Of a DNA stretch of 64,000 nucleotides, positions 7,276-60,342 are shown piece after piece; position 1 is the stretch's first letter; the number at the start of each line of letters is the position of its first letter. Source of the DNA: a virus. The stretch is from IMG/VR virus record IMGVR_UViG_3300043427_003610, positions 20,554-84,553 of that record; one strand, written 5' to 3'. The translations under genes and the position numbers were made by a program. Below the pieces are notes generated by a model. That model was not told the DNA's origin and did not search any database. It saw nothing but the letters and a program-made list of their open reading frames with translations.

Positions 7276-7302
7276 GTAAGGAATCGGTGGGTTCCGTCAA
7301 TT
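7276..7302 (+). promoter_or_regulatory. Bipartite element copy 1 (GTAAG-N14-CGTCAATT)
   Basis: GTAAG at 7276-7280, fourteen bases, then CGTCAATT at 7295-7302. It lies 30 bases before the GTG of the endonuclease gene and points the same way. The second box overlaps the loop of the terminator hairpin. See the first finding. Confidence 0.6.
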
Positions 7303-7321
7303 AAAAGGAGCCCACCTTTTT
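7286..7321 (+). terminator. Rho-independent terminator after portal
   Basis: A 10-bp stem (GGTGGGTTCC at 7286-7295 with GGAGCCCACC at 7307-7316, one G-U pair), an 11-base loop and five T residues. It closes the packaging/portal transcript. The loop carries GTCAATT from the bipartite element. Confidence 0.75.
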
Positions 7322-7331
7322 CCCCTTCCTC

Positions 7332-7724
7332 GTGGACGATTCACACACGTTCTTCTGGTTGGTTGGCGTATTGGAGGGCGAGGCGTACTTCGGGTACGAC
7401 AAGAGCAATCGCTCCCCTCGCCTGGAAGTGGAAATGAAGGACGAGCATGTCATCGCGCGCATCGCTGCGCTCTTTGACAAGTCGTATTCGCGACGAGACC
7501 GTCGGGCCCAGAATCCGAAAACGTCAGTGACGTATCGGGTGAGGCTCGGCGGTCCTCGTGCTTTGCAGGTGATGAAGCGCGTCCAGCCATATATGAGTCC
7601 TCGCCGGGCCCGGGCAATCCAGCTGGTCGAAGACTCGTACTGCGCGGACCACAAGGGCGCGCTGGACTATAACCGAATCCCTCTGCCGCCCCTGGTAGAG
7701 GTGCCTTACACGTTGGAGAAATAG
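7332..7724 (+). CDS. LAGLIDADG-type homing endonuclease, single motif
   Basis: A 130-residue protein. Residues 8-20 (FFWLVGVLEGEAYF) match the LAGLIDADG helix with its acidic Glu followed by Gly and an aromatic residue. The rest (basic DNA-contact strands, and a C-terminal PYMSPRRARAI helix) fits a single-motif enzyme that would act as a homodimer. The GTG start has no clear ribosome site. It sits alone between a terminator and the glycosyltransferase, in the middle of structural genes, as free-standing homing genes often do. Catalytic activity is inferred. Confidence 0.6.
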   Translation: MDDSHTFFWLVGVLEGEAYFGYDKSNRSPRLEVEMKDEHVIARIAALFDKSYSRRDRRAQNPKTSVTYRVRLGGPRALQVMKRVQPYMSPRRARAIQLVEDSYCADHKGALDYNRIPLPPLVEVPYTLEK

Positions 7725-7725
7725 C

Positions 7726-9096
7726 ATGCGGCGTGTCGTGATGGTTGCTGATGGTGCATGGCCGACCGGGTTCGAGCGTGTGGCTCGGGCGGTCGGAACG
7801 CATTTGCAGGCCACCGGCCAGTACGAGGTGGTGCACCGTGCGCTTGGCTACGGCGGGCCGGAACAGGAGCTTCGCGTTCCGCCCTATCCGTACGAGCTGA
7901 AGTCGGCGGACCAGATGTCCTATGATCCGTTGGCGGTGACCAACATGCCGAAGTGGATCAAGGAGGACCGCCCGGACGTCGTCCTGTTCATTCAGGACCT
8001 CTGGAATATCACGAACTATATGGGGTACGTGCCGCGCGATCTTCCGACGGTCGGCTACTACCCGGTAGATACTCCGAATATCAAGTGGAGCTACGCCATG
8101 GGCGCGGCGTCCCTGACCGAGGCGGTTACCTACACCGACTTCGGGGCCAAGGAGACCGCCCTGGGCATGCGCGACCTGGTCGACGTGGTCTTGAACTCCT
8201 ACTCGAACCAGGGTGTGGACATGTCCCAGAAGGCGTCCTGGATGACGCTGCCTAAGGACAAGATGGAGCTGCACCTGCGGGTGGACAACATGGCCGCCCG
8301 GCAGAACCGGAATGGGTTCAGCGTCATCCCCCACGGGATCGACCACGAGATGTTCTATCCGATGGACAAGGCGGAATGCCGCCAGATGTGGAACTTCCCA
8401 CAGGACGCCTTCATCGTCCTTAACGTCAATACCAACCAGTTCCGGAAGCGTCAGGACATCACCATCCGCGCGTTTGCGGAAATGGCCGCCAAGGTACCGA
8501 ACGCGTTGCTGGTACTGCACTGCATGGGCGGTAAGGACCGGGAGGGCTGGGACTTGGCCCAGCTGGCCCGGCTGTACGGGGTGGAGGACAAGGTCATCTG
8601 CACCCACTGGGCCTATCCCGAGCTGACGGACGAGCAGCTCCTGATGCTGTATAACAGCGCCGACGTCCAGATTAACACGGGCGGCGGCGAGGGTTGGGGG
8701 CTGACGGCGGTGGAAGCTGCCCTGTGCGGCGTCCCCCAGTTCGTGCCGGACTGGTCGGCCACCCGGGAGATCTGGAGCGGGCACGGGGTTCTCTTGCCGG
8801 TCTCCGACTACCGGTTTGAGCCCAGGTACATCAACACGGCCCACGCCATGGTCGATGTCCGCGGGACTGCGGCCCTCCTGGCGCAGTATGCGACCGACCG
8901 AGACTTGCTGCAGGCCACCGGGGAGGCGTGTCGCAACCGTGCCCTGCAGATGCCGACCTGGGATGAAGTCGGCGCTCAGTTTGCCAAGCGAATCGCCCGC
9001 GCGCTGTCCAGCGATCCGGCGGTGCCGATGCGACTTAATGAGATCAGGGATTCCCGCCGCGACGTTCTGCAGTCTGATCTGCTGATTCAAAGATAA
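7726..9096 (+). CDS. GT-B fold glycosyltransferase (GT4-like)
   Basis: A 456-residue glycosyltransferase. The N-terminal domain begins VVMVADGAWPTGFERVARAV, the Gly-rich acceptor loop of this fold; the nucleotide-sugar domain includes NVNTNQFRKRQD (residues about 235-245) and the EX7E motif with E322 and E330 in GGGEGWGLTAVEAALCGVPQ. No signal peptide or membrane segment, so it acts in the cytoplasm. Placement between portal and protease genes is unusual and suggests modification of a virion protein; DNA glycosylation is the alternative. Donor and acceptor are unknown. Confidence 0.8.
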   Translation: MRRVVMVADGAWPTGFERVARAVGTHLQATGQYEVVHRALGYGGPEQELRVPPYPYELKSADQMSYDPLAVTNMPKWIKEDRPDVVLFIQDLWNITNYMGYVPRDLPTVGYYPVDTPNIKWSYAMGAASLTEAVTYTDFGAKETALGMRDLVDVVLNSYSNQGVDMSQKASWMTLPKDKMELHLRVDNMAARQNRNGFSVIPHGIDHEMFYPMDKAECRQMWNFPQDAFIVLNVNTNQFRKRQDITIRAFAEMAAKVPNALLVLHCMGGKDREGWDLAQLARLYGVEDKVICTHWAYPELTDEQLLMLYNSADVQINTGGGEGWGLTAVEAALCGVPQFVPDWSATREIWSGHGVLLPVSDYRFEPRYINTAHAMVDVRGTAALLAQYATDRDLLQATGEACRNRALQMPTWDEVGAQFAKRIARALSSDPAVPMRLNEIRDSRRDVLQSDLLIQR

Positions 9097-9202
9097 GCTG
9101 AAGATCCCGAAGGACTAAACCGCCCGATCCTCTGCGTTTTCGCGTCGTTTCGCACGACTCATTCGATGATGGGTAGTGCGTCGACTATTTCGGAGGGTCG
9201 GC
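9097..9202 (+). promoter_or_regulatory. Gap before protease gene with CGACTCATT-like boxes
   Basis: A 106-base gap. CGACTCATT at 9155-9163 and CGACTATTT at 9182-9190 resemble the CGACTTATT box of later gaps. GGAGG lies just before ATG 9203. No terminator with a T run was seen. Confidence 0.25.
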
Positions 9203-10960
9203 ATGGCCGAAGACGACAACCGACAGGAAGGTCTGAACAGCCTGTCGGCTGCGTCGGACGACCGAATCCGCTTCATCACTGCGCGCGCCACGGTTACTGA
9301 AACGACCGGGGCTGCTGCGGACGACGCGGTCCTTCAGCAGGCGATGAGGTCTGCCGCCTTCATGCCGATGGTCACGGACGGCGAGCCGACGAAGCTGTTG
9401 GTTACTGCCTGGATGGTTCACGAGGGCAAGAATAACAACAACCTCGTGTTCCGCCCCGAGGACCTGGAACCGGCCGCGGCGAAGCTGGCCTCTCCGAATT
9501 TCCTTCCGATGGACTGGAACCACAGCGCCGTCATCCCAAAGGACGGCATCCCGAAGGCGATCGGGGTGTGGTATTCGGCCGAAGCGCTGTACGACGAGGC
9601 CGCTTATGAGGGGCGCGGCGCGTTGGGGATTCAGGCGAAGGGCGTGGTCTGGGCCTGGGCGTTTCCGGAATATGCGACGGAAATGCTTTCCATTCAGCGG
9701 GAGCGTGGGTTCATCGAGTTCTCGATGGCGTGCATTCCCACCGATGTGGAGCGAGGTCGCGACCAGAACGGCGCCTACGAAATTGCCATCGATCCCGTGT
9801 TCTTCACGCTTTCTGCGCTGAACGTGCCGCCGGGTGATCCTGACGCGAAGGGTGTGGTCGAGAACATGGAAGAGGTTCCTCGGCCTGCGCCGTTGGAGTG
9901 GTGGGAGACGATGGCGGCGTCTGCCGAAGAGTTCACGGACGGAGACCTTGAGAGCGAGGCTGCTGTCGAGGTGCTGTCCGGAGCCAAGAAGTCCAAGACC
10001 GACTTCCCCACGCGTGGGGAGGACAAGGCGGTCAGCCTTCGGAACAGCCAGTGGAAGCTCTTTCCGCTGGACGAGGCGATGGATCTGAAGGAGAACTGGC
10101 CGGAAATCTGGTCTCGTGGCGGCAATATCCGCGGCAACGATCAGTTCCGCCGGTTGACCCCAGTAGCTCGTCGGGGCGGCAAGGTCACTACTGCCACCGA
10201 GGAGTATGCGGTCAGGCTCAGGGAAGCGTGGGTGGCCCGGCACTACGAGGACTTCCAGCTCCCGGGTGTGATCGCGCAGGTGAAGTGGCTTGCCATCGGC
10301 TCTCGTGGCCTCGACCACATGCGGTCAGTGATAAACGAAGCCAAGGAGCGCGTGAAGGCCCGTCGGGCATCGGCGCGCACGGAGGAGGAGACTATGGAGA
10401 ATCAGAACGACATGGCTCAGGCGGCGCTCGAGGCCGCTCTTGAGGCGAATGCGGTGCTGAAGGCTGAGGTGGAAGCGGCGGGCGTGGCGGCCGATGAGGT
10501 GCTGAACAAGGCGGCCGAGATGGAGACCAAGCTCGCGGAGATGACTGTCCGTGCTGAGGAGGCCGAGCTGAAGCGGGATGCGCTCCAGGCGGAGTTGGCG
10601 GCGGCGGTCGAGCAGCTTTCGGCTGTGGTGGCCGAGTTCGAGACGGCCAAGGTGCAGCTCGCTGAGATCGCTGCGGAGCAGGAGAAGCTCGCGATTGAGC
10701 AGCGCTGGACTGCCCGCTTCGCGGAGCTGCCGGAGTCGTACCGTGCCGCGTTCGGCAAGCGGTCGGAGGATGAGCAGGACCGTTTTAAGACTCGCTGGTC
10801 GGTGGCTTCGGATGAGGCCTGGGGCGAGTTCAAGAGTGACCTGATTGTCGGGTTTGCTGATACGAAGATCAGCTACCTGAAGCTCTCCGAGGAGGAGGGC
10901 GCTCTGCCTGCTGGCAGTGTCACGGACCTGGGCGCCAAGGTTTCGGCGCTCATCAAGTAA
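9203..10960 (+). CDS. Prohead protease fused to scaffold
   Basis: 585 residues from ATG 9203, chosen over GTG 9176 because GGAGG lies 7 bases upstream. Residues about 20-235 resemble phage prohead serine proteases: H107 in MDWNHS and S174 in FIEFSMAC are candidate catalytic residues. Residues 285-375 form an extra basic domain with Trp-rich segments (ENWPEIW). Residues 395-510 are an Ala/Glu coiled coil typical of scaffolds. A fused protease-scaffold would assemble inside the prohead, cleave the scaffold and be lost at maturation. The family is inferred from layout and motifs. Confidence 0.7.
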   Translation: MAEDDNRQEGLNSLSAASDDRIRFITARATVTETTGAAADDAVLQQAMRSAAFMPMVTDGEPTKLLVTAWMVHEGKNNNNLVFRPEDLEPAAAKLASPNFLPMDWNHSAVIPKDGIPKAIGVWYSAEALYDEAAYEGRGALGIQAKGVVWAWAFPEYATEMLSIQRERGFIEFSMACIPTDVERGRDQNGAYEIAIDPVFFTLSALNVPPGDPDAKGVVENMEEVPRPAPLEWWETMAASAEEFTDGDLESEAAVEVLSGAKKSKTDFPTRGEDKAVSLRNSQWKLFPLDEAMDLKENWPEIWSRGGNIRGNDQFRRLTPVARRGGKVTTATEEYAVRLREAWVARHYEDFQLPGVIAQVKWLAIGSRGLDHMRSVINEAKERVKARRASARTEEETMENQNDMAQAALEAALEANAVLKAEVEAAGVAADEVLNKAAEMETKLAEMTVRAEEAELKRDALQAELAAAVEQLSAVVAEFETAKVQLAEIAAEQEKLAIEQRWTARFAELPESYRAAFGKRSEDEQDRFKTRWSVASDEAWGEFKSDLIVGFADTKISYLKLSEEEGALPAGSVTDLGAKVSALIK

Positions 10961-10994
10961 CCCGCGATAGCGGCAACCCTGTAGGAGGAAAACT

Positions 10995-11492
10995 ATGAAG
11001 CTGCACATTGCGAATTTCTACGACGCGCCGCGTCACACCGCCTTCGCGGGCGAGGCCATCGCTCTCGGCGCGGTCATCAAGATCGACCAGGGCCCGGCCG
11101 GTGAGCGTCGCGCTCTCCAGGTGACGGACGCGGATTCCGCGCTCCTCGTCGCTGGCAAGTACGGCGTGGCCGTCAAGGTCTCGGCGGACCAGCTCCAGGT
11201 GTCGGAGACGCTCTACGGCGTCCCGGCTGATTGGGGCTCCCGCGTGGTCGCGATCGCCTCGGGCGACGCGATCGTCCAGGTCGGCAAGGGCGCGATCATC
11301 GAGTACGAGCCGTCCCTGCTCCACGCTTCGCTCGACCCGGCTAACGGCGGCGCGCTGCCGACGGTTGGCACGGCTCTCGGCCTCAAGGGCGGGAAGTTCT
11401 GCACCACTGCCACGGCCAGCGCGATCACCAACCCGGTGGTCGGCCGTGTGTTCGACGTGCTCGGCGGCAAGGTCCGCATCGAGCTGGTCTAA
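10995..11492 (+). CDS. Capsid decoration/stabilisation protein candidate
   Basis: A 165-residue, Gly/Ala/Val-rich beta protein with a strong AGGAGG site, directly before the major capsid gene. This is the usual position of small head-decoration proteins such as lambda gpD. Codon use is strongly GC-biased like the capsid gene, indicating high expression. No motif proves the assignment. Confidence 0.55.
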   Translation: MKLHIANFYDAPRHTAFAGEAIALGAVIKIDQGPAGERRALQVTDADSALLVAGKYGVAVKVSADQLQVSETLYGVPADWGSRVVAIASGDAIVQVGKGAIIEYEPSLLHASLDPANGGALPTVGTALGLKGGKFCTTATASAITNPVVGRVFDVLGGKVRIELV

Positions 11493-11533
11493 ATAAGACC
11501 TGGACCTTGATCACCGAATAGGAGGAATCACAC

Positions 11534-12502
11534 ATGCAGTTCAAGACGGCGAATCGGACCGCGGCTGAGATCGCGGACCATAAGGCGGAGCTGGACCGGA
11601 TCTTCAAGGCGGCTGTCGGCCACGACAAGAAGGGCCGCATCGATCCGAAGGGGCTCAAGGAGCTTGAGTCCAACAAGTTCGAGATCGCGCAGCTTGTCGT
11701 CCAGCTCGTGGAGGACACTGTGGCGGTCACCGACCCGACCCCGTTCATGGTCGATCGGCGCACCTACAACCTTGGCGACCAGATCCTCTTCCAGGAGATG
11801 AAGGGCGACCTCAAGGTCACCAAGCGTGCCTATGGCACGAAGGCGCTCTCGCAGCGTCTTACGAAGGCTGAGTGGGGCATGACCACCTCGGCCAAGGAAC
11901 TCGCCATGGAAATCCCGCTCGAGGAGATTGCCTCGGGTGCCATGTCGGCCTCTGATGCGGTGAACTCGATGGCCGAGGCCATCAACCGCTACAACGTCCA
12001 GTTCGTGCTCGACGGCATCGACGCCGGTGTTCCGGCGCTCACCGGCGACCGGACCGGGCTGAACGGCTTCACGCTCCGCTACAGCGGGCTCACCAAGGAC
12101 AACCTCGAGAAGGCCCTCGACGGCCTCAAGGACGACGGCGAGGCGCCGAGCATCTTCGGCCGCCACACGGCGCTCTATCCCGAGATCCGTAGCTTCCAGG
12201 GCTGGTCGGACGAGGGGCTCCGTGAGTTCGAGCTTCGCGGCGTGACCGGCGTCTTCCAGGGCTCCCCGGTGGTGACCCTGGTCGACAAGTTCTCGCGCAA
12301 GTTCGGGTCGCACGTGATCCGCAACGACCGCGTGTACATCGCTGGCGGCACGAAGGGCGCCGTCATGGCCGAGGTCGACCTCAGCTTCCTCAACTACGCT
12401 GAGACCGATCCCCGCGCTGGCGTCTTCACGACCGGCATGCGCATGGAGTCCGGCCTCCTGGTCTGGAACCCGTACGCCTACCGCATCATCGAGATCGCGT
12501 AA
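11534..12502 (+). CDS. Major capsid protein
   Basis: A 322-residue protein following protease and decoration genes, with an AGGAGG site and a strong terminator after it. Features include an acidic N-terminal helical region (residues 8-65), a central FxLDGIDAGVPALTG segment and a C-terminal VFTTGMRMESGLLVWNPYAYRII stretch similar to other HK97-fold coats. Many copies would form the icosahedral shell. The assignment comes from gene order, size and composition. Confidence 0.75.
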   Translation: MQFKTANRTAAEIADHKAELDRIFKAAVGHDKKGRIDPKGLKELESNKFEIAQLVVQLVEDTVAVTDPTPFMVDRRTYNLGDQILFQEMKGDLKVTKRAYGTKALSQRLTKAEWGMTTSAKELAMEIPLEEIASGAMSASDAVNSMAEAINRYNVQFVLDGIDAGVPALTGDRTGLNGFTLRYSGLTKDNLEKALDGLKDDGEAPSIFGRHTALYPEIRSFQGWSDEGLREFELRGVTGVFQGSPVVTLVDKFSRKFGSHVIRNDRVYIAGGTKGAVMAEVDLSFLNYAETDPRAGVFTTGMRMESGLLVWNPYAYRIIEIA

Positions 12503-12520
12503 GCATCTCGTGCAGGAATA

Positions 12521-12560
12521 ACGACCTGGGGACCGGCTTCGGCCGGTCCCCTTGTCGTTT
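12521..12560 (+). terminator. Terminator after major capsid gene
   Basis: Very stable GC hairpin: GGGGACCGG (12528-12536), loop CTTCGG, CCGGTCCCC (12543-12551), extended by ACGAC/GTCGT outside, then TTTCC. The T run is short, but the stem is strong. Confidence 0.7.
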
Positions 12561-12567
12561 CCTGGAG

Positions 12568-12594
12568 GTAAGGTTTTGGGAAGTTCCGTCAATT
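12568..12594 (+). promoter_or_regulatory. Bipartite element copy 2
   Basis: GTAAG 12568-12572, fourteen bases, CGTCAATT 12587-12594, followed by TATAGGCA. It lies just after the capsid terminator and about 120 bases before ATG 12714. No hairpin surrounds it, so the conserved boxes do not depend on a stem. Confidence 0.6.
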
Positions 12595-12641
12595 TATAGG
12601 CATGGGTGTGTCCCGAGCGCACCGCTTTTGACGGCTGGTCA

Positions 12642-12651
12642 CGACTTATTG
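12642..12651 (+). promoter_or_regulatory. CGACTTATT box
   Basis: CGACTTATTG lies inside a small palindromic context (CGAC-TTATT-GTCG), 72 bases before ATG 12714. The same core recurs at 16816, 26602 and 45847. Confidence 0.35.
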
Positions 12652-12713
12652 TCGGGACCTCGAGTTTCGGGGACCTGGGCAGGACACTAGCGCTAGAGGC
12701 GCGGGAGAACACA

Positions 12714-13436: not shown

Positions 13437-13460
13437 GCATAACGCGCGGAGGAAGCGGCT

Positions 13461-13901: not shown

Positions 13902-14383
13902 TGCCGGTCAGCGGCAATCGCGTGACCGAGCGGGTCATCAAGCGGATTCGTGAGAGCGAGTATCGCCTCACGGTCTACTATCCGATCGCGAAGACCAAGC
14001 CGACTGGCAACGTCCCGGTTTCCCTGCCCGTCTCTCCGCTCCTGGCTGCCCCAAACCCGCAGCCGGAGAGCGGGGAAGACCCCGAGCGCATCCTGCCCGA
14101 GGTCACCCTCCAGTGCTTGCTGACCGAGGTGTCGCTCATGGGCGAATACCGCCGGGATCGCATGGAGGTGGAGGTGGGCGGCTGGAGCCGTGAGACGACC
14201 GCCCTGGCCCGCGTGATCGCCTCGGAGGCCGCCCTGTCCACCGGCGGGACGGTGTTCGACGGGTGCGACTTCGTGGAGGTCAACGGGAGCAGGTACAAGG
14301 TCCTCAACGTCGTTCGCCAGACGGCGAGTACGACGAAACTGGGCACGTTTTACGTCTTGCTAACGGGGGCCGTCAAGTCGTGA
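13901..14383 (+). CDS. Head closure/neck protein candidate
   Basis: A 160-residue, beta-rich protein with a Pro-rich loop (residues 30-60) and a C-terminal VNGSRYKVLNVVRQTAST segment like small head-closure proteins. Coupled to both neighbours by overlapping start/stop codons. Function inferred from order only. Confidence 0.45.
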   Translation: MPVSGNRVTERVIKRIRESEYRLTVYYPIAKTKPTGNVPVSLPVSPLLAAPNPQPESGEDPERILPEVTLQCLLTEVSLMGEYRRDRMEVEVGGWSRETTALARVIASEAALSTGGTVFDGCDFVEVNGSRYKVLNVVRQTASTTKLGTFYVLLTGAVKS

Positions 14384-15202: not shown

Positions 15203-15256
15203 GCAGAGTGATCGCCAGTCTCGTGACGCGATCGACAACCACAGGAGGATAGGGAA

Positions 15257-16815: not shown

Positions 16816-16824
16816 CGACTTATT
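16816..16824 (+). promoter_or_regulatory. CGACTTATT box
   Basis: CGACTTATT follows the terminator by 15 bases and precedes ATG 16887 by 71 bases, almost the same distance as at 12642. Fourteen bases upstream is a TTTT run, also seen near some other copies. Confidence 0.35.
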
Positions 16825-26589: not shown

Positions 26590-26624
26590 CTCCCCGTGAC
26601 TCGACTTATTAGAGTCACGGGGAG
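26590..26624 (+). promoter_or_regulatory. Perfect 13-bp hairpin presenting GACTTATTA
   Basis: CTCCCCGTGACTC (26590-26602) and GAGTCACGGGGAG (26612-26624) form a perfect stem with loop GACTTATTA, so the CGACTTATT box is exposed in the loop. There is no T run, so it is not an ordinary terminator; a separate terminator follows. Confidence 0.5.
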
Positions 26625-45123: not shown

Positions 45124-45309
45124 ATGGATCTGTTTATTACGATTGCAGCAGGCGCGTTTGGACTTGCGTTCATTGCCATGCTCGCGAAGGTGCTGTTCGC
45201 CCAGGGCCGAAAGGAGTCGAAGACTTCCCTTGGCGGTGGCGGCAGTTCGGAGCCTGAGCCGCGCCAACCGGGGACCGTCACGCCCCCAGGAAACCAGGAC
45301 GCCGCGTAA
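45124..45309 (+). CDS. Small single-span membrane protein
   Basis: 61 residues after AGGAGG. Residues 3-25 are one hydrophobic segment (FITIAAGAFGLAFIAMLAKVLF), followed by a Gly/Pro-rich cytoplasmic tail. It opens the lysis-region block; a holin-accessory or regulator role is possible but not shown. Confidence 0.5.
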   Translation: MDLFITIAAGAFGLAFIAMLAKVLFAQGRKESKTSLGGGGSSEPEPRQPGTVTPPGNQDAA

Positions 45310-45332
45310 GATTCTGCGCCGGTCCGTCAATT
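45306..45332 (+). promoter_or_regulatory. Bipartite element copy 3
   Basis: GTAAG 45306-45310 (overlapping the TAA of the membrane gene), fourteen bases, CGTCAATT 45325-45332, then CTAAG. ATG 45357 follows 25 bases later. GGTC/GACC flank the second box as a short stem. Confidence 0.6.
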
Positions 45333-45356: not shown

Positions 45357-45545
45357 ATGCCTTGCCAGCGCTGTATCCAAGCCATCCAGGAAGCCGGAAA
45401 CGTCCTCCAGGAAATGGCATTCTGCGACCCAGAAACCCTGCCGCCCGGCCGGGACTGGGCCGCCCTTGGCACAGAGCTGGTGCGCCTAGCTGGTCACCTG
45501 AGAACCCACACCCACGAGGAACCGCAGCATGGCAGAGATCCGTAA
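45357..45545 (+). CDS. Small CxxC helical protein, paralogue 2
   Basis: 62 residues: MPCQRCIQAIQ start, LQEM, P-x-x-LP-x-x-x-x-W and EL..LA..L in the same order as the protein at 43765. It has its own bipartite element upstream. Function unknown. Confidence 0.5.
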   Translation: MPCQRCIQAIQEAGNVLQEMAFCDPETLPPGRDWAALGTELVRLAGHLRTHTHEEPQHGRDP

Positions 45546-45777
45546 GACGCTGACCGACGTCCAGAAGCAGCAGCTGGCCGAGACCCAGGGCACCCTCAAC
45601 CAGCTTCGCGCCGCCCTCCAGAAGGCCGAAGCCGAGGCGCAGCGGGTCGTGGCGCTGGTCTTCGACGCGCATTCTGTTCCCCAGGACTGGACGGCGGACA
45701 TTGACCCGCAGACCGGCGAGCTGGTCTGCAAGGGCCCGGATGCGCCTGCCGACCCGGGGCCGAAGCTCGAAAAGTAA
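45529..45777 (+). CDS. Small coiled-coil protein
   Basis: 82 residues: a Gln/Ala/Glu coiled coil (residues 8-40) followed by a Pro/Asp-rich tail. Overlaps the preceding gene by 17 bases. No family recognised. Confidence 0.45.
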   Translation: MAEIRKTLTDVQKQQLAETQGTLNQLRAALQKAEAEAQRVVALVFDAHSVPQDWTADIDPQTGELVCKGPDAPADPGPKLEK

Positions 45778-45798
45778 GGCCCGTCATCTGAGTGTCAT
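45774..45798 (+). promoter_or_regulatory. Bipartite element copy 4 (weaker)
   Basis: GTAAG 45774-45778 (sharing the TAA stop), fourteen bases, TGTCAT 45793-45798. Spacing is exact, but the second box is shorter. ATG 45906 is 108 bases downstream. Confidence 0.4.
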
Positions 45799-45801
45799 CG
45801 C

Positions 45802-45846: not shown

Positions 45847-45855
45847 CGACTTATT
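45847..45855 (+). promoter_or_regulatory. CGACTTATT box
   Basis: CGACTTATT flanked by TTA/GTAA half-stems, 59 bases before ATG 45906. Fourth exact copy of this box in the late region. Confidence 0.35.
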
Positions 45856-47169: not shown

Positions 47170-47196
47170 GTAAGAAACCTCCGATCCGAGTCAATT
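47170..47196 (+). promoter_or_regulatory. Bipartite element copy 5
   Basis: GTAAG 47170-47174, fourteen bases, AGTCAATT 47189-47196, then CTATCGG. ATG 47223 is 27 bases downstream. The second box lies between the arms of the hairpin at 47176-47218. Confidence 0.6.
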
Positions 47197-47222: not shown

Positions 47223-47450
47223 ATGCTCAAGCAGCGTAAGAAATCTCGCAGGGAAATCGTGATCGCCACGGTGATCGGGTTGTCGATCACCTGCATCATG
47301 CTCGCGGTCAACGCCCTGGTCATCATGGTGGCCACGAATCTGGCTCTGGCGCCCTGGACGGCCACCCGGATTGGCTACTGGCCTGCGGTCGGTATGGCAC
47401 TGCTGGTGATCGAGATCCGGGACCTCCTGGCGCCCAGGAAGGTGGACTAA
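47223..47450 (+). CDS. Small two-span membrane protein
   Basis: 75 residues: basic N terminus (KQRKKSRR), hydrophobic spans at residues 12-38 and 48-62, charged C terminus. Size and topology are compatible with a class II holin or a small superinfection-type membrane protein. Its stop overlaps the dUTPase start. Confidence 0.45.
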   Translation: MLKQRKKSRREIVIATVIGLSITCIMLAVNALVIMVATNLALAPWTATRIGYWPAVGMALLVIEIRDLLAPRKVD

Positions 47451-49476: not shown

Positions 49477-50625
49477 ATGAAGCAAATCACATCGGTCGGG
49501 GAGCACGGCGCGACGGTGGCCATTCTGCAGCGGGGGAAGAAGTACTCGATCCGCTGGAAGGACCGCGCGACGGGGAAGTACAAGATGGAAGCGACCGGCG
49601 TGAGCGTCCTGACCAAGGCCAAGGAAGCGGCCAAGGCCAAGGCCGACCAGCTGTACGCCGAGCTGCTGGAAGCGCCCAAGGACGGCCGTGCGACGTGGTT
49701 CGACGTGCTCAAGCACTTCGAGACGCACTACCTGCCCCTGGCCCCGGCCGGGGACCAGAAGGCCTTCGACATGCTCGCCCTGGACGTCTGGCGGGCATTC
49801 CTGCCCACCCACCAGGCCGTGGACACCCTGGAGAAGCACGTGCTGCTCAAGTTCATCGACCAGCGGCAGCAGGGTGCGATCAAGGTGGACGGTAGGAACC
49901 TGCGCCAGTGCCGGACCAGGGCGCCCGCCAAGGACCTGGAATGGCTGCGCCGGGCCGTCAACCTGGCGATCTCGGATGGGAAGCGGATCAGCCATAACCC
50001 GGTCACTAAGGTCGAGTTCCCGAAGGCCCCGCGCCCCAAGCGGCCCGCGGCGACCTGGGAGCGCTTCGAGACCGTTCGCCCACACTGCGACCAGTGCGGG
50101 CTCCAGGACCTGTTCGGCGGCTACATGGACCTGGCGGTGGGCTTGGGGTGGCGGGTCAGTGCCTTGATTTCGCTCCGGGTAAAAGACATTGACCGAACAC
50201 CGCGGCCGGACGCTCCGAACGGACGCGTGCTTCGGCGCGAGGAGTTCGACAAGGAAGGCTACGAGACCTTCGTGCCGATCAGCGATTGGCTGGCGCCGCG
50301 CGTCAATGCGCTGCTGGCGAAGCGGAATACCCTGAAGGTGGTGAGCCAATGGCTCTTCCCCAAGGTCGCCAAGCCGAGCGAGCCGTGGACCAGGGACTAC
50401 GTGAAGGAGCGGCTGGAGGTGGCCGAACGACGGGCCAAGCTCGAGCCGCTGGCGGGCGGCGACACGCACCCGTATCGGCGGATGTGGGCGAACATGCGCA
50501 AGCACCTGCCGCTCAAGGACGTCGCCTACGCAGGCTGCTGGAACGAGCGCACGCTGCTCGAACACTACCAGGCATCGGACGATGCCACCGTTCTGGACGT
50601 CATGAACGCGGGATTGCCGAGCTAA
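49477..50625 (+). CDS. int: Tyrosine-family integrase
   Basis: 382 residues. Catalytic residues of tyrosine recombinases are visible: R226 in GLGWRVSALISL, H331-x-x-R334 in HPYRR, W355 in AYAGCW and nucleophile Y364 in LLEHYQ. The N-terminal 60 residues are a basic arm-binding type domain; C204/C207 form an extra CxxC. The attP-like tRNA fragment lies about 0.8 kb downstream with short repeats around it. It would catalyse integration and excision at the host tRNA-Ala gene. Confidence 0.85.
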   Translation: MKQITSVGEHGATVAILQRGKKYSIRWKDRATGKYKMEATGVSVLTKAKEAAKAKADQLYAELLEAPKDGRATWFDVLKHFETHYLPLAPAGDQKAFDMLALDVWRAFLPTHQAVDTLEKHVLLKFIDQRQQGAIKVDGRNLRQCRTRAPAKDLEWLRRAVNLAISDGKRISHNPVTKVEFPKAPRPKRPAATWERFETVRPHCDQCGLQDLFGGYMDLAVGLGWRVSALISLRVKDIDRTPRPDAPNGRVLRREEFDKEGYETFVPISDWLAPRVNALLAKRNTLKVVSQWLFPKVAKPSEPWTRDYVKERLEVAERRAKLEPLAGGDTHPYRRMWANMRKHLPLKDVAYAGCWNERTLLEHYQASDDATVLDVMNAGLPS

Positions 50626-51322: not shown

Positions 51323-51440
51323 TTGGTGCAGTGTGTGTTTTTAGGGGTTTTTAGGTGTATCGTGAAGGGTACGCGGGGAGGAATAAACGAAATGACAAAC
51401 GCTGTAAGTGATTGAAAACACTAGCCCTTAGGTGGGCTTC

Positions 51441-51481
51441 GGGGCGTTAGCTCAGCTGGGAGAGCGCGTGGTTTGCAAGCC
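51441..51481 (+). other. attP: attP-like core: 5' half of tRNA-Ala(TGC)
   Basis: GGGGCGTTAGCTCAGCTGGG begins a sequence matching tRNA-Ala positions 1-38, with D-arm GCTC/GAGC and anticodon loop TTTGCAA (anticodon TGC at 51474-51476). The 3' half is missing: the anticodon stem does not close and no T-arm or CCA follows. This is the mark of a phage attachment core with crossover near the anticodon loop. It is unusual that identity is on the 5' side. A prophage junction is the other reading, but phage genes lie on both sides. Confidence 0.65.
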
Positions 51482-51547
51482 CGCTAGGGGGTCTGCGAGC
51501 CACGCGCAACTGCTTCTAGAACACCAAGTTAGAGCACCGCCAAAAAC

Positions 51548-52635: not shown

Positions 52636-52658
52636 TGTTAGTGGGGTGAAAGGAAGCG

Positions 52659-53650: not shown

Positions 53651-53658
53651 CGGTGTCC

Positions 53659-54285: not shown

Positions 54286-54905
54286 ACCCGCTTCAAGGTG
54301 ACCGAGAGAATGTTGGGAGAGCCGTCCGGCGAGCGCCGGATGGTGTCTTCCAGGTTGCTGAAGTGCAGCAGCTCGTAACCCGTGCTCTCCGCGAACTGCA
54401 TCATGCTCTGCGGATTGAAGAACCAGAGATGCTCATTGGGACGGCGGTGCTTCCAGGTGTCGAACCAGTCGTCCGAGCGGTAATGGCACCAGGGCAGCGA
54501 GATCACCACGTACTTGGCCTTCAGGTCACGGATCACGTACGGGTCTTCGAAGTGTTCGAGCACGTCGAAGAACGTGACCACGTCGACCGGCTTGCTCATC
54601 CAGTCCTCGGCGAACGTCACACCCGGCGGGACCGGGTAGCCGCTCACGTCAAAGCCGTAGCAATTCGGGATGATCCGGGTGCACGTCTCCAGGAAAGCGC
54701 CGTTGCCGTAGCCCACGTCGATGATGCTCTCGGGAATCCGCCCGATCGCGCCCACGATGTAGCCGAGCCGGAGGTGGCTCATCCAGGCATTCAGGTCGCC
54801 GTACGTGTTGTAGCGCGCGTCCACGTACTCGGTGTCGTACGTGAAGGGCTCGCGGGACAGCTGATAGATGACGCCGTCCTGGTTGACGTCGTAGTTGGGC
54901 AGCAT
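54276..54905 (-). CDS. SAM-dependent methyltransferase 2
   Basis: 209 residues, class I fold of the Methyltransf_23 type: IIDVGYGNGAFL (motif I), YGFDVSG (motif II), VVTFFDVLEHFEDP (motif IV) and EHLWFFNPQSM (downstream conserved). No DNA-target-recognition domain, so a small-molecule or sugar substrate is more likely than DNA. In one operon with the GT9-like gene. Confidence 0.75.
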   Translation of the reverse strand: MLPNYDVNQDGVIYQLSREPFTYDTEYVDARYNTYGDLNAWMSHLRLGYIVGAIGRIPESIIDVGYGNGAFLETCTRIIPNCYGFDVSGYPVPPGVTFAEDWMSKPVDVVTFFDVLEHFEDPYVIRDLKAKYVVISLPWCHYRSDDWFDTWKHRRPNEHLWFFNPQSMMQFAESTGYELLHFSNLEDTIRRSPDGSPNILSVTLKRVWN

Positions 54906-54915
54906 GTGGGCGGGG

Positions 54916-55740
54916 TTAAAGGACAGAAACGAATCGGCGAACGTGATCGTCGGTGTAGCCGTCGAACGTGGTGGCCACGGTGTTTCGGCGGAGAATACCG
55001 AAGAGCCACTCGTCGATCATCCCATTCGGCGAATGGGCTTCGAGCACGGTCTGCGGGTAGAGCAGCAGCTGCGGCTTTTCTTCAATCCACCCGAGCAGGC
55101 AGGGCGAGCTGTGGGCGGTGACCACGCCTGCCGCGTTCTGGATCAGCATGCCCGTTCCGGGGACCGACAACCGGTCCACCAGGTTCACGACGCCTGCCCG
55201 GTCATCCCACTGGTATTCCTCCCGCCAGTCACTCCGGTCATCCAGCGGCCGGTCATAGGAGCGGCCGATCATCACGAGCGGCAGCTGTGCCTCCGCATGC
55301 AGCGCGGGCAAGACCCTGGTCACCAGCAGGTCTCTCGGAATGAACCGATCCGGGGTGCCAGCACTCGGGGCCACCACCAGGTAGCGGGTGCCGACCAAGG
55401 GCTCCAGCACCTGCAGGTCCTCCGGGGACGGATAGTACGTGACCACGCTGTCCCGTTCCGGGTGCTTAACGTTCATCCCGGCTGGAGGCATCCCGTGCCG
55501 CTGCCGCATCTCCGCGTCCTGGGCCGGGCTCCAGTAGCCAAGGTCGTGGACTGTGATGCGCTCCCGGTTCGGGTGCCACGCGAACAGCTCCTTGGCGAAC
55601 GGGTTGTGCGTGATCAGGTAGACGTCGGCCGTGGCGTCCGGCTCCATGTCCCGCAGCACGTTGTAGGTGCCGCGGAAGTAGAGCTGGCGGAAGATGTCCC
55701 CCAGCCCACCGCCGAACTCCAGCTGGTAGTGGTTAGACAT
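54916..55740 (-). CDS. GT9-like glycosyltransferase
   Basis: 274 residues. N-terminal GGGLGDIFRQL is the acceptor-domain Gly loop; LVVAPSAGTPDRFIPRDL and the later NAAGVVTAHSSPCLLGWIEEKPQLLLYP match the donor-binding half of heptosyltransferase-like (GT9) enzymes. Slightly shorter than bacterial GT9. Together with two methyltransferases it suggests synthesis of a methylated sugar decoration. Confidence 0.6.
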   Translation of the reverse strand: MSNHYQLEFGGGLGDIFRQLYFRGTYNVLRDMEPDATADVYLITHNPFAKELFAWHPNRERITVHDLGYWSPAQDAEMRQRHGMPPAGMNVKHPERDSVVTYYPSPEDLQVLEPLVGTRYLVVAPSAGTPDRFIPRDLLVTRVLPALHAEAQLPLVMIGRSYDRPLDDRSDWREEYQWDDRAGVVNLVDRLSVPGTGMLIQNAAGVVTAHSSPCLLGWIEEKPQLLLYPQTVLEAHSPNGMIDEWLFGILRRNTVATTFDGYTDDHVRRFVSVL

Positions 55741-56002
55741 CCACCCGCTCGAGCCGCTTCTTCAGCTTGGCGCCGTTCTGCAGGTCGGCCCCGGAGACGT
55801 CAAAGACCTTCTTGCCGTCCTTGAGGGCGACCAGCGTCGGTACAGTCATGAGCCCGAGCGGGGTGATGAACCGCTCGCCTTCCGGTTCCCGGACGTTCAA
55901 CCAGGAAACCTTGAGATTCAGGTCCTTGGCGACCTGTTCGACAATGGGCTTGGCGGCCTTACAGGGCGCGCAGTGGTCTTTCCAGAAGTACAGGAGTTCC
56001 AT
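55733..56002 (-). CDS. Thioredoxin
   Basis: 89 residues, small thioredoxin fold with active site C11-A-P-C14, conserved cis-Pro in MTVPTLVALKDG. It lies upstream of the sugar-modification genes and near the ribonucleotide reductase, whose C-terminal cysteines need a reductant. Probably the electron donor for class II RNR. Confidence 0.85.
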   Translation of the reverse strand: MELLYFWKDHCAPCKAAKPIVEQVAKDLNLKVSWLNVREPEGERFITPLGLMTVPTLVALKDGKKVFDVSGADLQNGAKLKKRLERVDV

Positions 56003-56022
56003 GAGTAGGTTGGTGAAAAGAA

Positions 56023-56055
56023 GGTGCCTCTTCAGTAATTGACCGAAGAGGCACC
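56023..56055 (-). terminator. Terminator hairpin with conserved loop
   Basis: An 11-bp perfect stem (56023-56033 with 56045-56055). Read on the minus strand it is followed by TTCTTTTC. The loop carries GGTCAATT of the bipartite element. Confidence 0.65.
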
Positions 56056-56063
56056 GTTCTTAC
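56037..56063 (-). promoter_or_regulatory. Bipartite element copy 6
   Basis: On the minus strand GTAAG (56063-56059), fourteen bases, GGTCAATT (56044-56037). The thioredoxin ATG at 56002 is 35 bases downstream in the same sense. Confidence 0.6.
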
Positions 56064-56108
56064 AGGGTCGTCCCGACCAGGCGGGTCAGCTCGGGCCCGC
56101 CACCCGTC

Positions 56109-56435
56109 TTATTGGGTCGTAACCGTACTCGAGCCAAGCACGCATCCACAGATGCCGGAGCCGCCATTCTTCGGGTTACAGGAGCACGTGTCGTAGTGCG
56201 ACGTGCCGCCGGTGCTATTGACCGGGTAGCTTCTGAACGGCTGCGGGTAGTGCGGTCCGTGCCCGTCAGGGATCGGCGGCGGGGGCGGCCGATACAGCTC
56301 GCGCAGCCCGCAGAAGCAGCACACCCGCGGGGTCATCGGCGGCCAGACGGTGATGGTGTAGGTGTACGTGCTGTCCGTGTGCCAGCAGTGCTGGCACGGG
56401 GCGGCAGCGTTGTCCATGGGTCCGTTGTCCGTCAT
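56109..56435 (-). CDS. Cys/Pro-rich small protein
   Basis: 108 residues with CQHCW, CCFCGL, CSC and CGC clusters and a PPPPPIP stretch. Possible zinc-binding protein. Unknown function; coupled to the Acb2-like gene upstream. Confidence 0.45.
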   Translation of the reverse strand: MTDNGPMDNAAAPCQHCWHTDSTYTYTITVWPPMTPRVCCFCGLRELYRPPPPPIPDGHGPHYPQPFRSYPVNSTGGTSHYDTCSCNPKNGGSGICGCVLGSSTVTTQ

Positions 56436-56677
56436 GGCGCGTCCGACTGGTTCTCGGGACGAGACGCCATGGCCTTCTTGGCGAAGAAGGAGGCTTCCTC
56501 GAGCTTGGTGCGCACGATCGACATCTCGCGACCGTCGACACCACAGACGGACTCGAGATCATTAAGGAAGGCGGTGAATAGGTACGCCAGCTCGCGCGCC
56601 TTTGCGATGCCGGGACCGTTCAGGATGTGGACGGCGAATTCACTGCGGATCGGGACGGTCTGCGACGCTTCATTCAT
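56432..56677 (-). CDS. Acb2/Tad1 hairpin-like small protein
   Basis: 81 residues from ATG 56677. Two helices with ARELAYLFTAFLND and GREMSIVRTKLEEASFFAKKAMA match the pattern I know for the Acb2/Tad1 hairpin domain (a hydrophobic helix, a loop, then 'RE-S-ALTKLEEA-WA--A'). Proteins of this family bind cyclic nucleotides made by CBASS or Thoeris-type defences and so protect the phage. The match is by eye; the binding residues cannot be verified here. Confidence 0.5.
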   Translation of the reverse strand: MNEASQTVPIRSEFAVHILNGPGIAKARELAYLFTAFLNDLESVCGVDGREMSIVRTKLEEASFFAKKAMASRPENQSDAP

Positions 56678-56831
56678 TGGGTGTGTCTTGGTTAGTGGTG
56701 TCCTGCAACTTGCGGCGCACACTCACGCGCTCGCTCTTTCGCTTGTCCTTCGCCCGCTGGTGCTTGTGCGGCTTGCAGAGCAGGCAGCCAGCACGACTGG
56801 ACTTGGGCTTCTTGCGCTTGTGGTGGGCCAT
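56670..56831 (-). CDS. Small basic CxxC protein
   Basis: 53 residues from ATG 56831, very basic, with CLLCKPHKHQ near the middle. Similar very short basic CLxCKPHK proteins are common in phages with no known role; RNA or DNA binding is plausible. Confidence 0.5.
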   Translation of the reverse strand: MAHHKRKKPKSSRAGCLLCKPHKHQRAKDKRKSERVSVRRKLQDTTNQDTPNE

Positions 56832-56833
56832 AC

Positions 56834-57118
56834 CTACTGCACCGTTTCGTACGTCGCCTCGAAGATCTGCGGCTTGCACGGATAGAACTCGCCCTCAATC
56901 CCGCGAACGATGTAGTCGCCCGGCTGGGCCCACATCGTGCCTTCGAGGGTTTCAATGCTGAGCGACGTGCGAGTCTCGCCGGTGTCGTAGGTGATGGAGA
57001 CACTGCCGCAGGGTTGCCCACCGCGGGCGACGATCCAGTCATTGACGGCCTGAATGGTCCCGTCACCGACGTACTGCAGGGCTTCGATCACGACCGGCTT
57101 CTTGCGATAGTGGGGCAT
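56834..57118 (-). CDS. Conserved phage protein of the 'RKKPVVIEA' type
   Basis: 94 residues: begins with YRKKPVVIEALQY and ends with PGDYIVRGIEGEFYPCKPQIF, a hallmark of a widely distributed phage hypothetical protein. Beta-rich. Function unknown. Confidence 0.65.
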   Translation of the reverse strand: MPHYRKKPVVIEALQYVGDGTIQAVNDWIVARGGQPCGSVSITYDTGETRTSLSIETLEGTMWAQPGDYIVRGIEGEFYPCKPQIFEATYETVQ

Positions 57119-57121
57119 GGA

Positions 57122-57292
57122 CTAGCGGACCTTCACGCAAGACATCGACGTCGACCAGGTGTAGCACACCACGCCATCCGCCGGAAAGGGATGTACCCGC
57201 ACAGTGGACACCGCGACCGTGGCAATACGACCGCACCCGGCCAGCAGCGGTACTAGGACCAGGGCACCAACCAGCAACAGCTTCTTCGACAT
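57122..57292 (-). CDS. Small lipoprotein
   Basis: 56 residues from ATG 57292: signal peptide KKLLLVGALVLVPLLAGC with a lipobox ending at Cys20. The mature part is about 36 residues. Preceded by an element/hairpin at 57317-57358. Could be an o-spanin or a superinfection-exclusion lipoprotein; not Pro-rich enough to decide. Confidence 0.6.
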   Translation of the reverse strand: MSKKLLLVGALVLVPLLAGCGRIATVAVSTVRVHPFPADGVVCYTWSTSMSCVKVR

Positions 57293-57316
57293 GGGATGTG
57301 GGTTAGGGTAGAAAAG

Positions 57317-57352
57317 ACAGCGCCTCTTCAGGAATGACTGAAGAGGCGCTGT
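57317..57352 (-). terminator. Terminator after ribonucleotide reductase
   Basis: A 15-bp perfect stem (57317-57331 with 57338-57352), six-base loop; on the minus strand followed by CTTTTCT. It closes the nrdJ transcript. Confidence 0.75.
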
Positions 57353-57358
57353 TCTTAC
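57333..57358 (-). promoter_or_regulatory. Bipartite element copy 7
   Basis: On the minus strand GTAAG (57358-57354), fourteen bases, AGTCATT (57339-57333, one base shorter than in others). The lipoprotein ATG at 57292 is 41 bases downstream. Confidence 0.5.
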
Positions 57359-57360
57359 AA

Positions 57361-59334
57361 CTAGATGACACAACCGTCGTTGCTACAGTACTTCTCCTGC
57401 TCGGCCGCCTCGTGCGTGGACCCGAAGTGGAGCTGGCCCAGCGCATCGACTCGGCGCTGGTACTCCGCCTCATCGATTCCCTCGTACGGCATCTGCGGAT
57501 ACGCTCCGGCCTCGAACTTGGGCAGGAACGACACGCCCTTCAGCTGGTACTGGAAGTAATCAAGCGCGTGGCTGATCTGCGCACCTTCGGTCTTGGGATC
57601 GAAGGTGATAGTCGCCGACACCTGGTTGTCCGCCCAGTACTTCTGGAGGAACGCGGCCATCGAGAGCTGCTCCCACATCGACACCTGGCTGGTGGTACGC
57701 AGCGGCTCGTGGATCTTGACCGGGATCTCGACCACGAGCGTCGAGTCTTCGCTGCCGAACGCGGGCTCGAGCGGGTAGCCCGCAGCCCGAAGCGGCTCGA
57801 TCAAGTCCGAGAACTTGGAGAGCCGCATGCGACGGATGTAGGTCGTCGCCTCCGGCCAGTGCATGCCCGGGGTGGCCCCGGCCAGCAGCGACACGGAACC
57901 CGACGGCTTGACGGACGTCACCTTTACCGACTTCGGAATGGTGAGCCAGTCCGAGTACACGTCGTCGTAGTAGCGAACCGTCTTGTAACCCACCTCACAC
58001 CACTGGCGGTACTGCTCGATGCCGAACTTGGCGACCGCCTGCTGAATCCCCGACTGCGAGAGCCCGATGCGGCGGTTGCGGAGCAGCACCCGGTTGGTCC
58101 GCGCCCAGGGCGTCTTGCCGAGGGTCACGGTCTTGCCGTAGAGGTACGCGAACTTGAGGGTCCGCTTGTAGTCTTCCAGGTCCGTGTGGTTGGCCGGGAA
58201 GGTCTCGACCAGGCAGCACAGCTCGTAGCTCTCGAGCGACTGCTCGACGCACGGGTTGGCCCCCGCCACGCGCTTGTCCTTGAAGTCCGGCGCATCACCC
58301 ATGCGGCCGTAGTCGCGCATGTTGTCGAGCCACGCATATCCCGGCTCGCCGTTGAGCGCCACGCGCTCCGCCGACGGGCCGTAGTCCATGCCCAGCTCGG
58401 CGAAGATCGAGTTGTTGCTCGTCCAGCCGTACTCGGCGCGGTGCGGGTTGACCTCGTAGTTCTTGAGGTCGAGGAACTCCTCGCTGGTCGGCTCACCGAA
58501 CGCGATCTCGGCCGTGCGGCGGACGTTGCCCGCCACCACGCACTTCCCGATCAGGTTCTGGATGTCGACAATGTTCGTCACCGAGATCGGCTTGCCAGCC
58601 GCCGCGTTCAGCACGCCCCGAATGGCGTCGTGCATCTGCTTGAGCGGCTCGTAGCCCGACGCGACACCACCGAAGCCCTTGATGGGCTCGCCAGCCGCAC
58701 GAATCAGCGAGTAGTCAAACTCGACCGGCCCCGAGCCCGCCACGAAGTAGGACTCGAGCAGCACCTTGAGCGACTCGACCCAGCCCTCGCGGGTGTCGGG
58801 AATCTGGAACAGCACGGGCTGCCCGGTGGGCGCGTTAACCGTCAGCTTACCGGCACCCTTGGTGTCGAAGCCGACGCCGATGCCGAGCATCGAGGCGTCC
58901 ATGAGGAACGTGAACGGATCGGCCAGGTCCTTCTCCAGGTTCACCGTGGAGACGAAGGCGCAGTTGTTGAGGGCCGCATAGAGGTCCTTGTCCATGGTCA
59001 GGCTGGACCCCATGGCCCAGAGTCCCCGACCAGGCGGCAGGAACTTCATGTTCCAAATGCGGTCGAACATTTCCTGGGCCGAGCGCTGCGCCTTGCGGTC
59101 GCTCCAGCCGAGGTTGTGCTCGTTGATCCAGCGCTTCTGCATGGTGTAGGTGCCCTCGACGACACGGCGCACCGTCTCATGCCACTGCTCCTGGGTCCCG
59201 TCCTCCTTGAGTCTCGAATAGGTACGAAGGTAGACCAGCTCGCCGAGGCCGTTAAAGCCGAAGGGCGGGGTCTTAGAGGCGTAAGATTCCACAAAGGAAT
59301 CCACAAGCTTGAACATGACTTCCTTGCGATTCAT
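57361..59334 (-). CDS. nrdJ: Class II ribonucleotide reductase (B12-dependent)
   Basis: 657 residues from ATG 59334 after GGGAGGA. Reduces ribonucleotides to deoxyribonucleotides using adenosylcobalamin. Residues match the monomeric Lactobacillus leichmannii-type RTPR: C125 in NNCAFVST, N360-P-C362-x-E364 with thiyl Cys C373 eleven residues after C362, and the C-terminal redox pair C650/C655 in KYCSNDGC. The same gene series supplies a thioredoxin. The phage thus needs host or environmental B12 but works with or without oxygen. Confidence 0.9.
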   Translation of the reverse strand: MNRKEVMFKLVDSFVESYASKTPPFGFNGLGELVYLRTYSRLKEDGTQEQWHETVRRVVEGTYTMQKRWINEHNLGWSDRKAQRSAQEMFDRIWNMKFLPPGRGLWAMGSSLTMDKDLYAALNNCAFVSTVNLEKDLADPFTFLMDASMLGIGVGFDTKGAGKLTVNAPTGQPVLFQIPDTREGWVESLKVLLESYFVAGSGPVEFDYSLIRAAGEPIKGFGGVASGYEPLKQMHDAIRGVLNAAAGKPISVTNIVDIQNLIGKCVVAGNVRRTAEIAFGEPTSEEFLDLKNYEVNPHRAEYGWTSNNSIFAELGMDYGPSAERVALNGEPGYAWLDNMRDYGRMGDAPDFKDKRVAGANPCVEQSLESYELCCLVETFPANHTDLEDYKRTLKFAYLYGKTVTLGKTPWARTNRVLLRNRRIGLSQSGIQQAVAKFGIEQYRQWCEVGYKTVRYYDDVYSDWLTIPKSVKVTSVKPSGSVSLLAGATPGMHWPEATTYIRRMRLSKFSDLIEPLRAAGYPLEPAFGSEDSTLVVEIPVKIHEPLRTTSQVSMWEQLSMAAFLQKYWADNQVSATITFDPKTEGAQISHALDYFQYQLKGVSFLPKFEAGAYPQMPYEGIDEAEYQRRVDALGQLHFGSTHEAAEQEKYCSNDGCVI

Positions 59335-59411
59335 TGAGTTTTCCTCCCGTTGGGCACAGTAGGTCGCCAACGGGGGTGGTTTACGAATTGGGGTGGACAG
59401 CTACGACGGGG
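59335..59411 (-). promoter_or_regulatory. nrdJ leader with hairpin touching the ribosome site
   Basis: CCCGTTGG (59346-59353) and CCAACGGG (59367-59374) form a perfect 8-bp stem with a 13-base loop containing CGACCTACTG. On the minus strand the 3' arm ends in GGG, the first bases of the GGGAGGA ribosome site, so folding could hide it. GTAAA lies 13 bases before CGAC. Too small for a cobalamin riboswitch. Confidence 0.4.
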
Positions 59412-59759
59412 TCAGGTTTCGAGCAGGACAGCCAGCAGATCTTCGGGGGAGACGTCAATCAACTCGGCCAGCACTTCGACCGCTTCGAGTGCCCTGGCGT
59501 GGTGCTTGTCCGCGGCCTCGGCCACGGTCTCCGGCGTCACGGACTCGAGCAGCTGCGTGTCCTGCTTGATGTCGTTGACGACTTCCGCGAGAGCATTGAG
59601 ACTCTCGATGTATTCGGGGTCCGACACCAGCCCCCACCAGTCGTCTTCGGTCGGAAACCGCCGCGCCAACGCAGCACCCACGATCAGGGTGCTGCGAAGG
59701 CGAGACAGCTCCATGGTGGCCGCGAGCGCGGCGTACGTCAGCTGCGGCTCAGTCGACAC
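59412..59759 (-). CDS. Unknown helical protein
   Basis: 115 residues, mostly helical, acidic. Lies between the SSB-like and nrdJ genes. Residues DPEYIESLNALAEVVNDIKQD suggest a small helical bundle. No family recognised. Confidence 0.45.
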   Translation of the reverse strand: MSTEPQLTYAALAATMELSRLRSTLIVGAALARRFPTEDDWWGLVSDPEYIESLNALAEVVNDIKQDTQLLESVTPETVAEAADKHHARALEAVEVLAELIDVSPEDLLAVLLET

Positions 59760-59762
59760 GGA

Positions 59763-60278
59763 TTAGAACGGGAACGCGGAGTCGTCGTCCTCGTCCTGGA
59801 ACTCGTCCGCGACCGCCGTCGGAGCCGCCGCGGGCTTCTTGGCGCCAGCCGCCGCCTTGGTCGGGGCCGCCTTCTTCGCACCCGAGCCCGCCTCAGCCGC
59901 CGAGAGCGACTGGTAGGCCTTGGTGGCCTCGTCGATCAGCCACTTGCGGAAGCCCCACGCCGCCTGCGTCGGCGAACGAGTGTCCGGCTTCTCCGGGTTG
60001 GCGCCCTTCTCCATGAAAAGGTCGACGATGTTGTCGTAGACCTTGTAGCCGTTATCGTCCATCACGGCCTCGCCCTCCTTGGTCAGCCGCTGCTTCGACG
60101 GGAACGACACGAAGTTGCCCGAGCCATCGTTCTTCTGCTTGAGCCAGCAGCCGCGCACATCGACGACACCAACGAACGACCCGTTCTCCTCGTACCCGAT
60201 CGCCAGGTCGAAGACCATGAGCGAGTTACGGGAGACCGCCTTGCAGTTGTGAACCTTGAAACGCAACGACTTCGCCAT
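59763..60278 (-). CDS. Single-stranded DNA-binding protein candidate
   Basis: 171 residues. N-terminal ~110 residues are beta-rich with aromatic/basic segments (VRGCWLKQKN, GNFVSFPSKQR) as in OB folds; residues 125-155 are an Ala/Lys/Pro linker; the end is acidic with EDDDSAFPF, the protein-interaction tail seen in SSBs (DDDIPF). Bipartite element copy 8 lies 38 bases before the ATG. Likely coats ssDNA in replication. Confidence 0.65.
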   Translation of the reverse strand: MAKSLRFKVHNCKAVSRNSLMVFDLAIGYEENGSFVGVVDVRGCWLKQKNDGSGNFVSFPSKQRLTKEGEAVMDDNGYKVYDNIVDLFMEKGANPEKPDTRSPTQAAWGFRKWLIDEATKAYQSLSAAEAGSGAKKAAPTKAAAGAKKPAAAPTAVADEFQDEDDDSAFPF

Positions 60279-60315
60279 ACGGAAAACCTCGAGGGATGAA
60301 GTGGACCTGCCTAGA

Positions 60316-60342
60316 AATTGACGGAGAGAACGGGAACCTTAC
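60316..60342 (-). promoter_or_regulatory. Bipartite element copy 8
   Basis: On the minus strand GTAAG (60342-60338, overlapping the TAA of the preceding gene), fourteen bases, CGTCAATT (60323-60316), then TCTAGGCA. No hairpin surrounds it. Confidence 0.65.

Follow-up and report, generated by a model that had tools for sequence, protein, structure and literature searches.

Promoters read by the sigma factors of phages phiEco32 and 7-11 carry -10-like motifs (TAATGTATA, TGATGT) and depend on a single sigma factor (PMC4331800). In the SigO-RsoA system, sigma regions 2 and 4 are located on separate proteins (PMC8103513), and T4 gp33 binds the RNA polymerase flap, is structurally unrelated to region 4 and on its own does not bind DNA (PMC7892883). 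The uncultured phage described here shares features with each of these systems. As in phiEco32 and 7-11, genome comparison yielded about ten low-copy conserved intergenic motifs, a phage-encoded sigma and motif shifts between relatives; unlike in those phages, there is a -35-like box that does not vary, the spacer is fixed at 15 bp and the sigma candidate is split. The candidate resembles SigO-RsoA in domain arrangement, with a putative region 4 and a region 2 on separate proteins encoded by adjacent genes, whereas SigO-RsoA is bacterial with few target operons and the present case concerns phages, each genome having some ten candidate promoters. The parallel with T4 gp55/gp33 is a functional one (a phage region-2-type protein with a second small phage protein), except that here the second protein has a predicted region-4 fold and the candidate promoter has a -35 box.

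The window analysed is the whole 64,000-nucleotide stretch at positions 20554-84553 of the 84,553-bp linear record IMGVR_UViG_3300043427_003610 (contig G000). The initial annotation described eight copies of a bipartite element in this window and suggested a phage-specific promoter class whose second box resembles the -10 box of ECF promoters. All eight were found again at the same coordinates and strands, and the distance between GTAAG and GTCA is 15 bases in every one; the element, here called class A, is GTAAG-N15-GTCA (equivalently, GTAAG-N14-NGTCA). Three related contigs were found through their terminase, namely G001 (89% identity) and G002 and G003 (79%), of which the last two have long stretches in common and do not count as independent. 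The copies in the window are as follows.

7276-7302, plus strand: candidate class A promoter GTAAG-N15-GTCAATT, between a portal-like gene (5560-7275) and an HNH gene (7332-7724); same gap in G001
12568-12594, plus strand: candidate class A promoter after a capsid-like gene; same gap in G001 and in G002/G003; a separate terminator-like hairpin lies just upstream (12528-12551)
45306-45332, plus strand: candidate class A promoter with GTAAG overlapping the stop codon of the upstream gene, followed by a small ORF (45357-45545); degenerate at this junction in G001 and also found in the G002/G003 gap
45774-45800, plus strand: doubtful copy GTAAG-N15-GTCATCG (14.1 bits), followed by a terminator-like hairpin
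47170-47196, plus strand: candidate class A promoter before a gene at 47223
56037-56063, minus strand: candidate class A promoter before a thioredoxin-like gene (55733-56002); same gap in G001
57332-57358, minus strand: candidate class A promoter after a ribonucleotide reductase gene (57361-59334)
60316-60342, minus strand: candidate class A promoter facing a gene at 59763-60278; present at the matching gap of both G001 and G002

Seven of these are strong sites. The copy at 45774, which the initial annotation had itself marked as weaker, is probably a chance occurrence because of its low score, the lack of AATT, the terminator-like hairpin that follows and its absence from the matching gap of G001. 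By eye, a reading frame similar to the small ORF at 45357-45545 is present in G001 and G002, and the product of the gene at 59763-60278 has an SSB-like acidic tail.

The genome-wide search that the initial annotation had proposed as a check returned 11 copies of GTAAG-N15-GTCA in the 84.5-kb contig against a mean of 0.36 (maximum 3) in 300 dinucleotide shuffles; the longer form GTAAG-N15-GTCAATT occurs nine times and was absent from all 300 shuffles, and a reversed control pattern had no match in the whole contig. Spacing is equally strict, with 11 occurrences at N15, two at N16 and none at N8 to N14, N17 or N18. On both strands of the contig GTCAATT is present 11 times; nine of these copies belong to the N15 element, and another, within a gene, to an N16 version. 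Additionally, GTAAG-N16-GTCATTT at contig position 4038, outside the window, lies in a gap directly before a gene and could be an N16 promoter variant.

A matrix scan of the contig placed its ten best sites at 27.6-35.1 bits, all of them in gaps, which make up about one tenth of the contig; the next match, at 15.5 bits, is the best one in coding sequence. The matrix was derived from these same ten sites and their own scores are inflated, but the drop to 15.5 bits exceeds what such inflation alone explains. All ten strong sites are co-oriented with the next gene and have a possible start codon 11-40 nt past the second box, counting an upstream in-frame GTG at 12568 (where 119 nt separate the second box from the called ATG) and, for the site at 45306, the small ORF at 45357, which the gene caller missed. 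GTAAG often touches or overlaps the stop codon of the preceding gene, and the matrix columns 5' of it carry little information.

The element was also present in the same gaps of the relatives, in at least seven matching gaps of G001 and six of G002/G003. In G001, GTAAG-N15-GTCAA(T/C)N is found at the same gene junctions; across eight paired G000/G001 sites, identity is 40/40 in GTAAG and 39/40 in GTCAA, compared with 24-40% in spacer and flanks. The pairs were located by motif and the box identity is therefore partly by construction, which is not so for the matching gene junctions. GTAAG-N15-GTCA has no occurrence in G002 or G003; these contigs carry GTAAGGT with (C)GAA(C/T) at the class A offset in nine and ten copies, respectively, and at no other spacing, against a mean of 0.005 for this pattern in shuffles of G002. 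The -10-like box is changed among relatives while the -35-like box and the spacing are fixed.

From the sequence pattern, spacing, gap placement, orientation and conserved position, all observed directly, we infer promoter activity and start sites, and we hold with high confidence that class A is a genuine phage-specific promoter class, as the initial annotation proposed; the nearby sigma-like genes also support that proposal. Its ECF resemblance was not borne out: the first box is GTAAG and not of the GGAAC type, a C precedes GTCA (giving CGTC) in only 5 of the 11 copies, and the second box is (C)GAA(C/T) in G002/G003, where CGTC is absent. No convincing sigma-70 promoter (TTGACA, TATAAT) was found near the class A sites.

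Three proteins encoded in the window were considered as candidate readers.

1361-1621, plus strand: sigma region-4-like protein of 86 aa, candidate -35 reader
1724-2116, plus strand: sigma region-2 protein of 130 aa (Pfam Sigma70_r2, E=4.7e-11), candidate -10 reader
62116-62865, minus strand: fast-evolving protein with a helix-turn-helix-like C-terminus, putative alternative sigma-like candidate

The region-2 domain is directly recognizable in the 130-aa protein, which has no region 4, and no other region 2 was found in the contig. Region 4 was assigned to the 86-aa protein by fold (AlphaFold2 pLDDT of 85; Foldseek matches mostly to sigma region 4, with probabilities up to 1.00 and no E below 0.15) together with a partial Pfam Sigma70_r4 match at E=0.004, below the cut-off, and this basis counts against the reading that follows. 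Each of the four phages has exactly one region-2 gene, always adjoining the region-4 gene. The region-4 segment SEAAIRYI lies where the putative recognition helix begins and, like GTAAG, is unchanged in all the phages; the region-2 protein varies more. On balance, a -35 box calling for a region 4 suggests that class A is read by this split sigma pair, with region 4 contacting the -35 box and region 2 the -10 box. The 62116-62865 protein gained no support as a sigma factor, having a poor structure model and no Pfam, profile or fold match to one. A single-subunit phage RNA polymerase was sought through PF00940, which had no match; the control for that profile likewise matched nowhere, and the missing match is therefore no proof of absence.

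A second motif bears directly on this assignment. Class B, CGAC(T/C)TATT with close variants, is found in all four phages; it occupies gaps that precede several structural genes as well as the region-2 gene, with no obvious conserved upstream box.

1684-1692, plus strand: class B CGACCTAGT, upstream of the region-2 gene; kept in relatives
9155-9163, plus strand: class B CGACTCATT
12642-12650, plus strand: class B CGACTTATT, in the same gap as the class A site at 12568 and downstream of it
16816-16824, plus strand: class B
26602-26610, plus strand: class B in the loop of a long perfect hairpin, kept in relatives
45847-45855, plus strand: class B
59358-59366, minus strand: class B-like CGACCTACT in a conserved hairpin loop directly before a ribosome-binding site

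Class B may be a late promoter class that has only a -10 box. It fits a T4-type late promoter (a -10 box and no -35) better than class A, which fails in this respect with its invariant GTAAG at fixed spacing. Class B was also considered as a hairpin-only RNA element and rejected, with strong hairpins at just a few of its sites. The split sigma could then read either class. One alternative, unlikely but credible, is that the pair reads class B in the manner of T4 gp55/gp33 while another phage factor, such as the 62116-62865 protein, reads class A. Under this arrangement the sigma genes, which directly precede the terminase and structural genes, would lie beside the late genes, several of which, like the region-2 gene, follow class B sites; further, both the class A -10 box and the 62116-62865 protein (41% identity) have diverged in G002/G003, and class B and the split sigma less so. 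It would however leave a class A -35 box that calls for a region-4-type reader to a protein with no support as a sigma factor, and assign region 4 to a class with no -35 box.

A host alternative sigma factor as the reader, with class A an early promoter type borrowed from the host, is improbable. Class A does precede replication genes, for which host RNA polymerase is usually required first, but its boxes correspond to none of the standard housekeeping promoters, the -10 box varies among related phages, and every phage has its own region 2 and region 4. In the genome contig collection searched for a host, neither a terminase relative nor an exact copy of the attP-like tRNA-Ala fragment was found. 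This fragment (51440-51482) resembles the 5' part of a tRNA-Ala, lies downstream of a gene that by eye is tyrosine-recombinase-like (49477-50625) and probably marks the attP site; at the equivalent position, G002 carries a fragment resembling tRNA-Pro. The long gap at 62866-63178 was also noted, with a T8 terminator-like hairpin and repeated CACCAAGTTGGCAT.

Hairpins overlapping the class A sites were overlooked in the initial annotation. At four of the ten strong G000 sites (contig positions 14170, 27829, 76616 and 77911, the last three being window 7276, 56063 and 57358), the spacer forms the 5' arm, the -10 box lies wholly or mostly in the loop, and a T-rich tail comes after the 3' arm. The three in the window are listed here.

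7286-7321, plus strand: candidate terminator of the upstream operon, a hairpin of 10 pairs (7286-7295 with 7307-7316) followed by TTTTT, its loop enclosing the -10 box; p=0.010 relative to shuffled flanks
56023-56055, minus strand: terminator-like hairpin of 14 pairs with tail TTCTTTT and most of the -10 box inside the loop; 0 of 300 shuffles
57317-57352, minus strand: terminator-like hairpin of 15 pairs with tail CTTTT, -10 box in a 6-base loop; z=-7.6

All four have the features of intrinsic terminators (a GC-rich hairpin and a T-rich tail); two were also called independently by a terminator scan, and the other two have loops longer than the scan allows. Similar hairpins at 77282 and 92734 in G001 and at 3802 in G002 bring to seven the number of sites in these phages at which the loop contains the second box. 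At the thioredoxin junction the stem sequences differ between G000 and G001, yet both pair around the same boxes. The site at 47170 has an interrupted hairpin, formed by its spacer and downstream sequence, with no T-run. These structures resemble rho-independent terminators in having a GC-rich hairpin and a T-rich tail at operon ends; unlike them, they share their bases with a co-directional candidate promoter, whose -10 box occupies the loop. From the hairpins we infer termination, such that the terminator of the upstream operon and the promoter of the downstream one would share bases, and a new transcript, starting in the 3' arm, would escape termination. In the literature, covered in part, no clear precedent for promoters embedded in phage terminator loops was found, which is weak evidence of novelty.

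The same seven hairpins could suggest that class A, instead of being a promoter, acts as the operator of a DNA-binding regulator or works at the RNA level, for example as a hairpin with a conserved loop. This is very unlikely given that most sites have no hairpin, that the two boxes are dissimilar and non-palindromic, and that the element is always co-oriented at a short distance before genes. Reverse-facing sigma-70 promoters (AATTGAC-N15-CTTAC on the other strand) were rejected as next to impossible: GTCAA reads TTGAC on the opposite strand and two sites (one in G000, one in G001) score as weak sigma-70 promoters in that direction, but the required TANNNT is not conserved, G002/G003 lack TTGAC, and at all sites the upstream gene would be transcribed in antisense.

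Under the split-sigma reading, GTAAG would serve as the -35 element and GTCAATT as the -10 element, and the phage pair (region-4 protein at 1361-1621, region-2 protein at 1724-2116) would direct host core RNA polymerase to class A, driving DNA-replication and nucleotide genes and several accessory operons. Class A would also drive the operon containing the region-4 gene, and another promoter would therefore be needed to start the cascade. Two further points weigh against this reading in its full form: class B stands before late genes and the region-2 gene as well, which makes it a possible alternative target of the split sigma, and hairpins accompany fewer than half of the strong sites (4 of 10 in G000). 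In compact gaps the -35 box starts at the upstream stop codon or overlaps it, and at the four hairpin copies the spacer, -10 box and start region would double as terminator stem, loop and stem. Transcripts arriving from upstream would fold the hairpin and stop, whereas a transcript begun in the 3' arm would lack the 5' arm and would not be stopped. It is tentatively suggested that a true split sigma serving a rigid -35/-10 promoter is combined here with repeated fusion of that promoter to the upstream terminator, the -10 box supplying the hairpin loop, to form a self-insulating stop-and-restart element of about 45 bp.

If this is true, terminator and promoter together would form a compact insulator of natural origin from which its own transcripts escape. 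The results also provide a promoter map that lends itself to direct testing, for a group of phages without relatives in the annotated collection that was searched; there, the terminase, region-4 and region-2 proteins all had no match. The promoter class would be linked to a split sigma, its -10 box having shifted between relatives while the -35 box and the spacing stayed constant.
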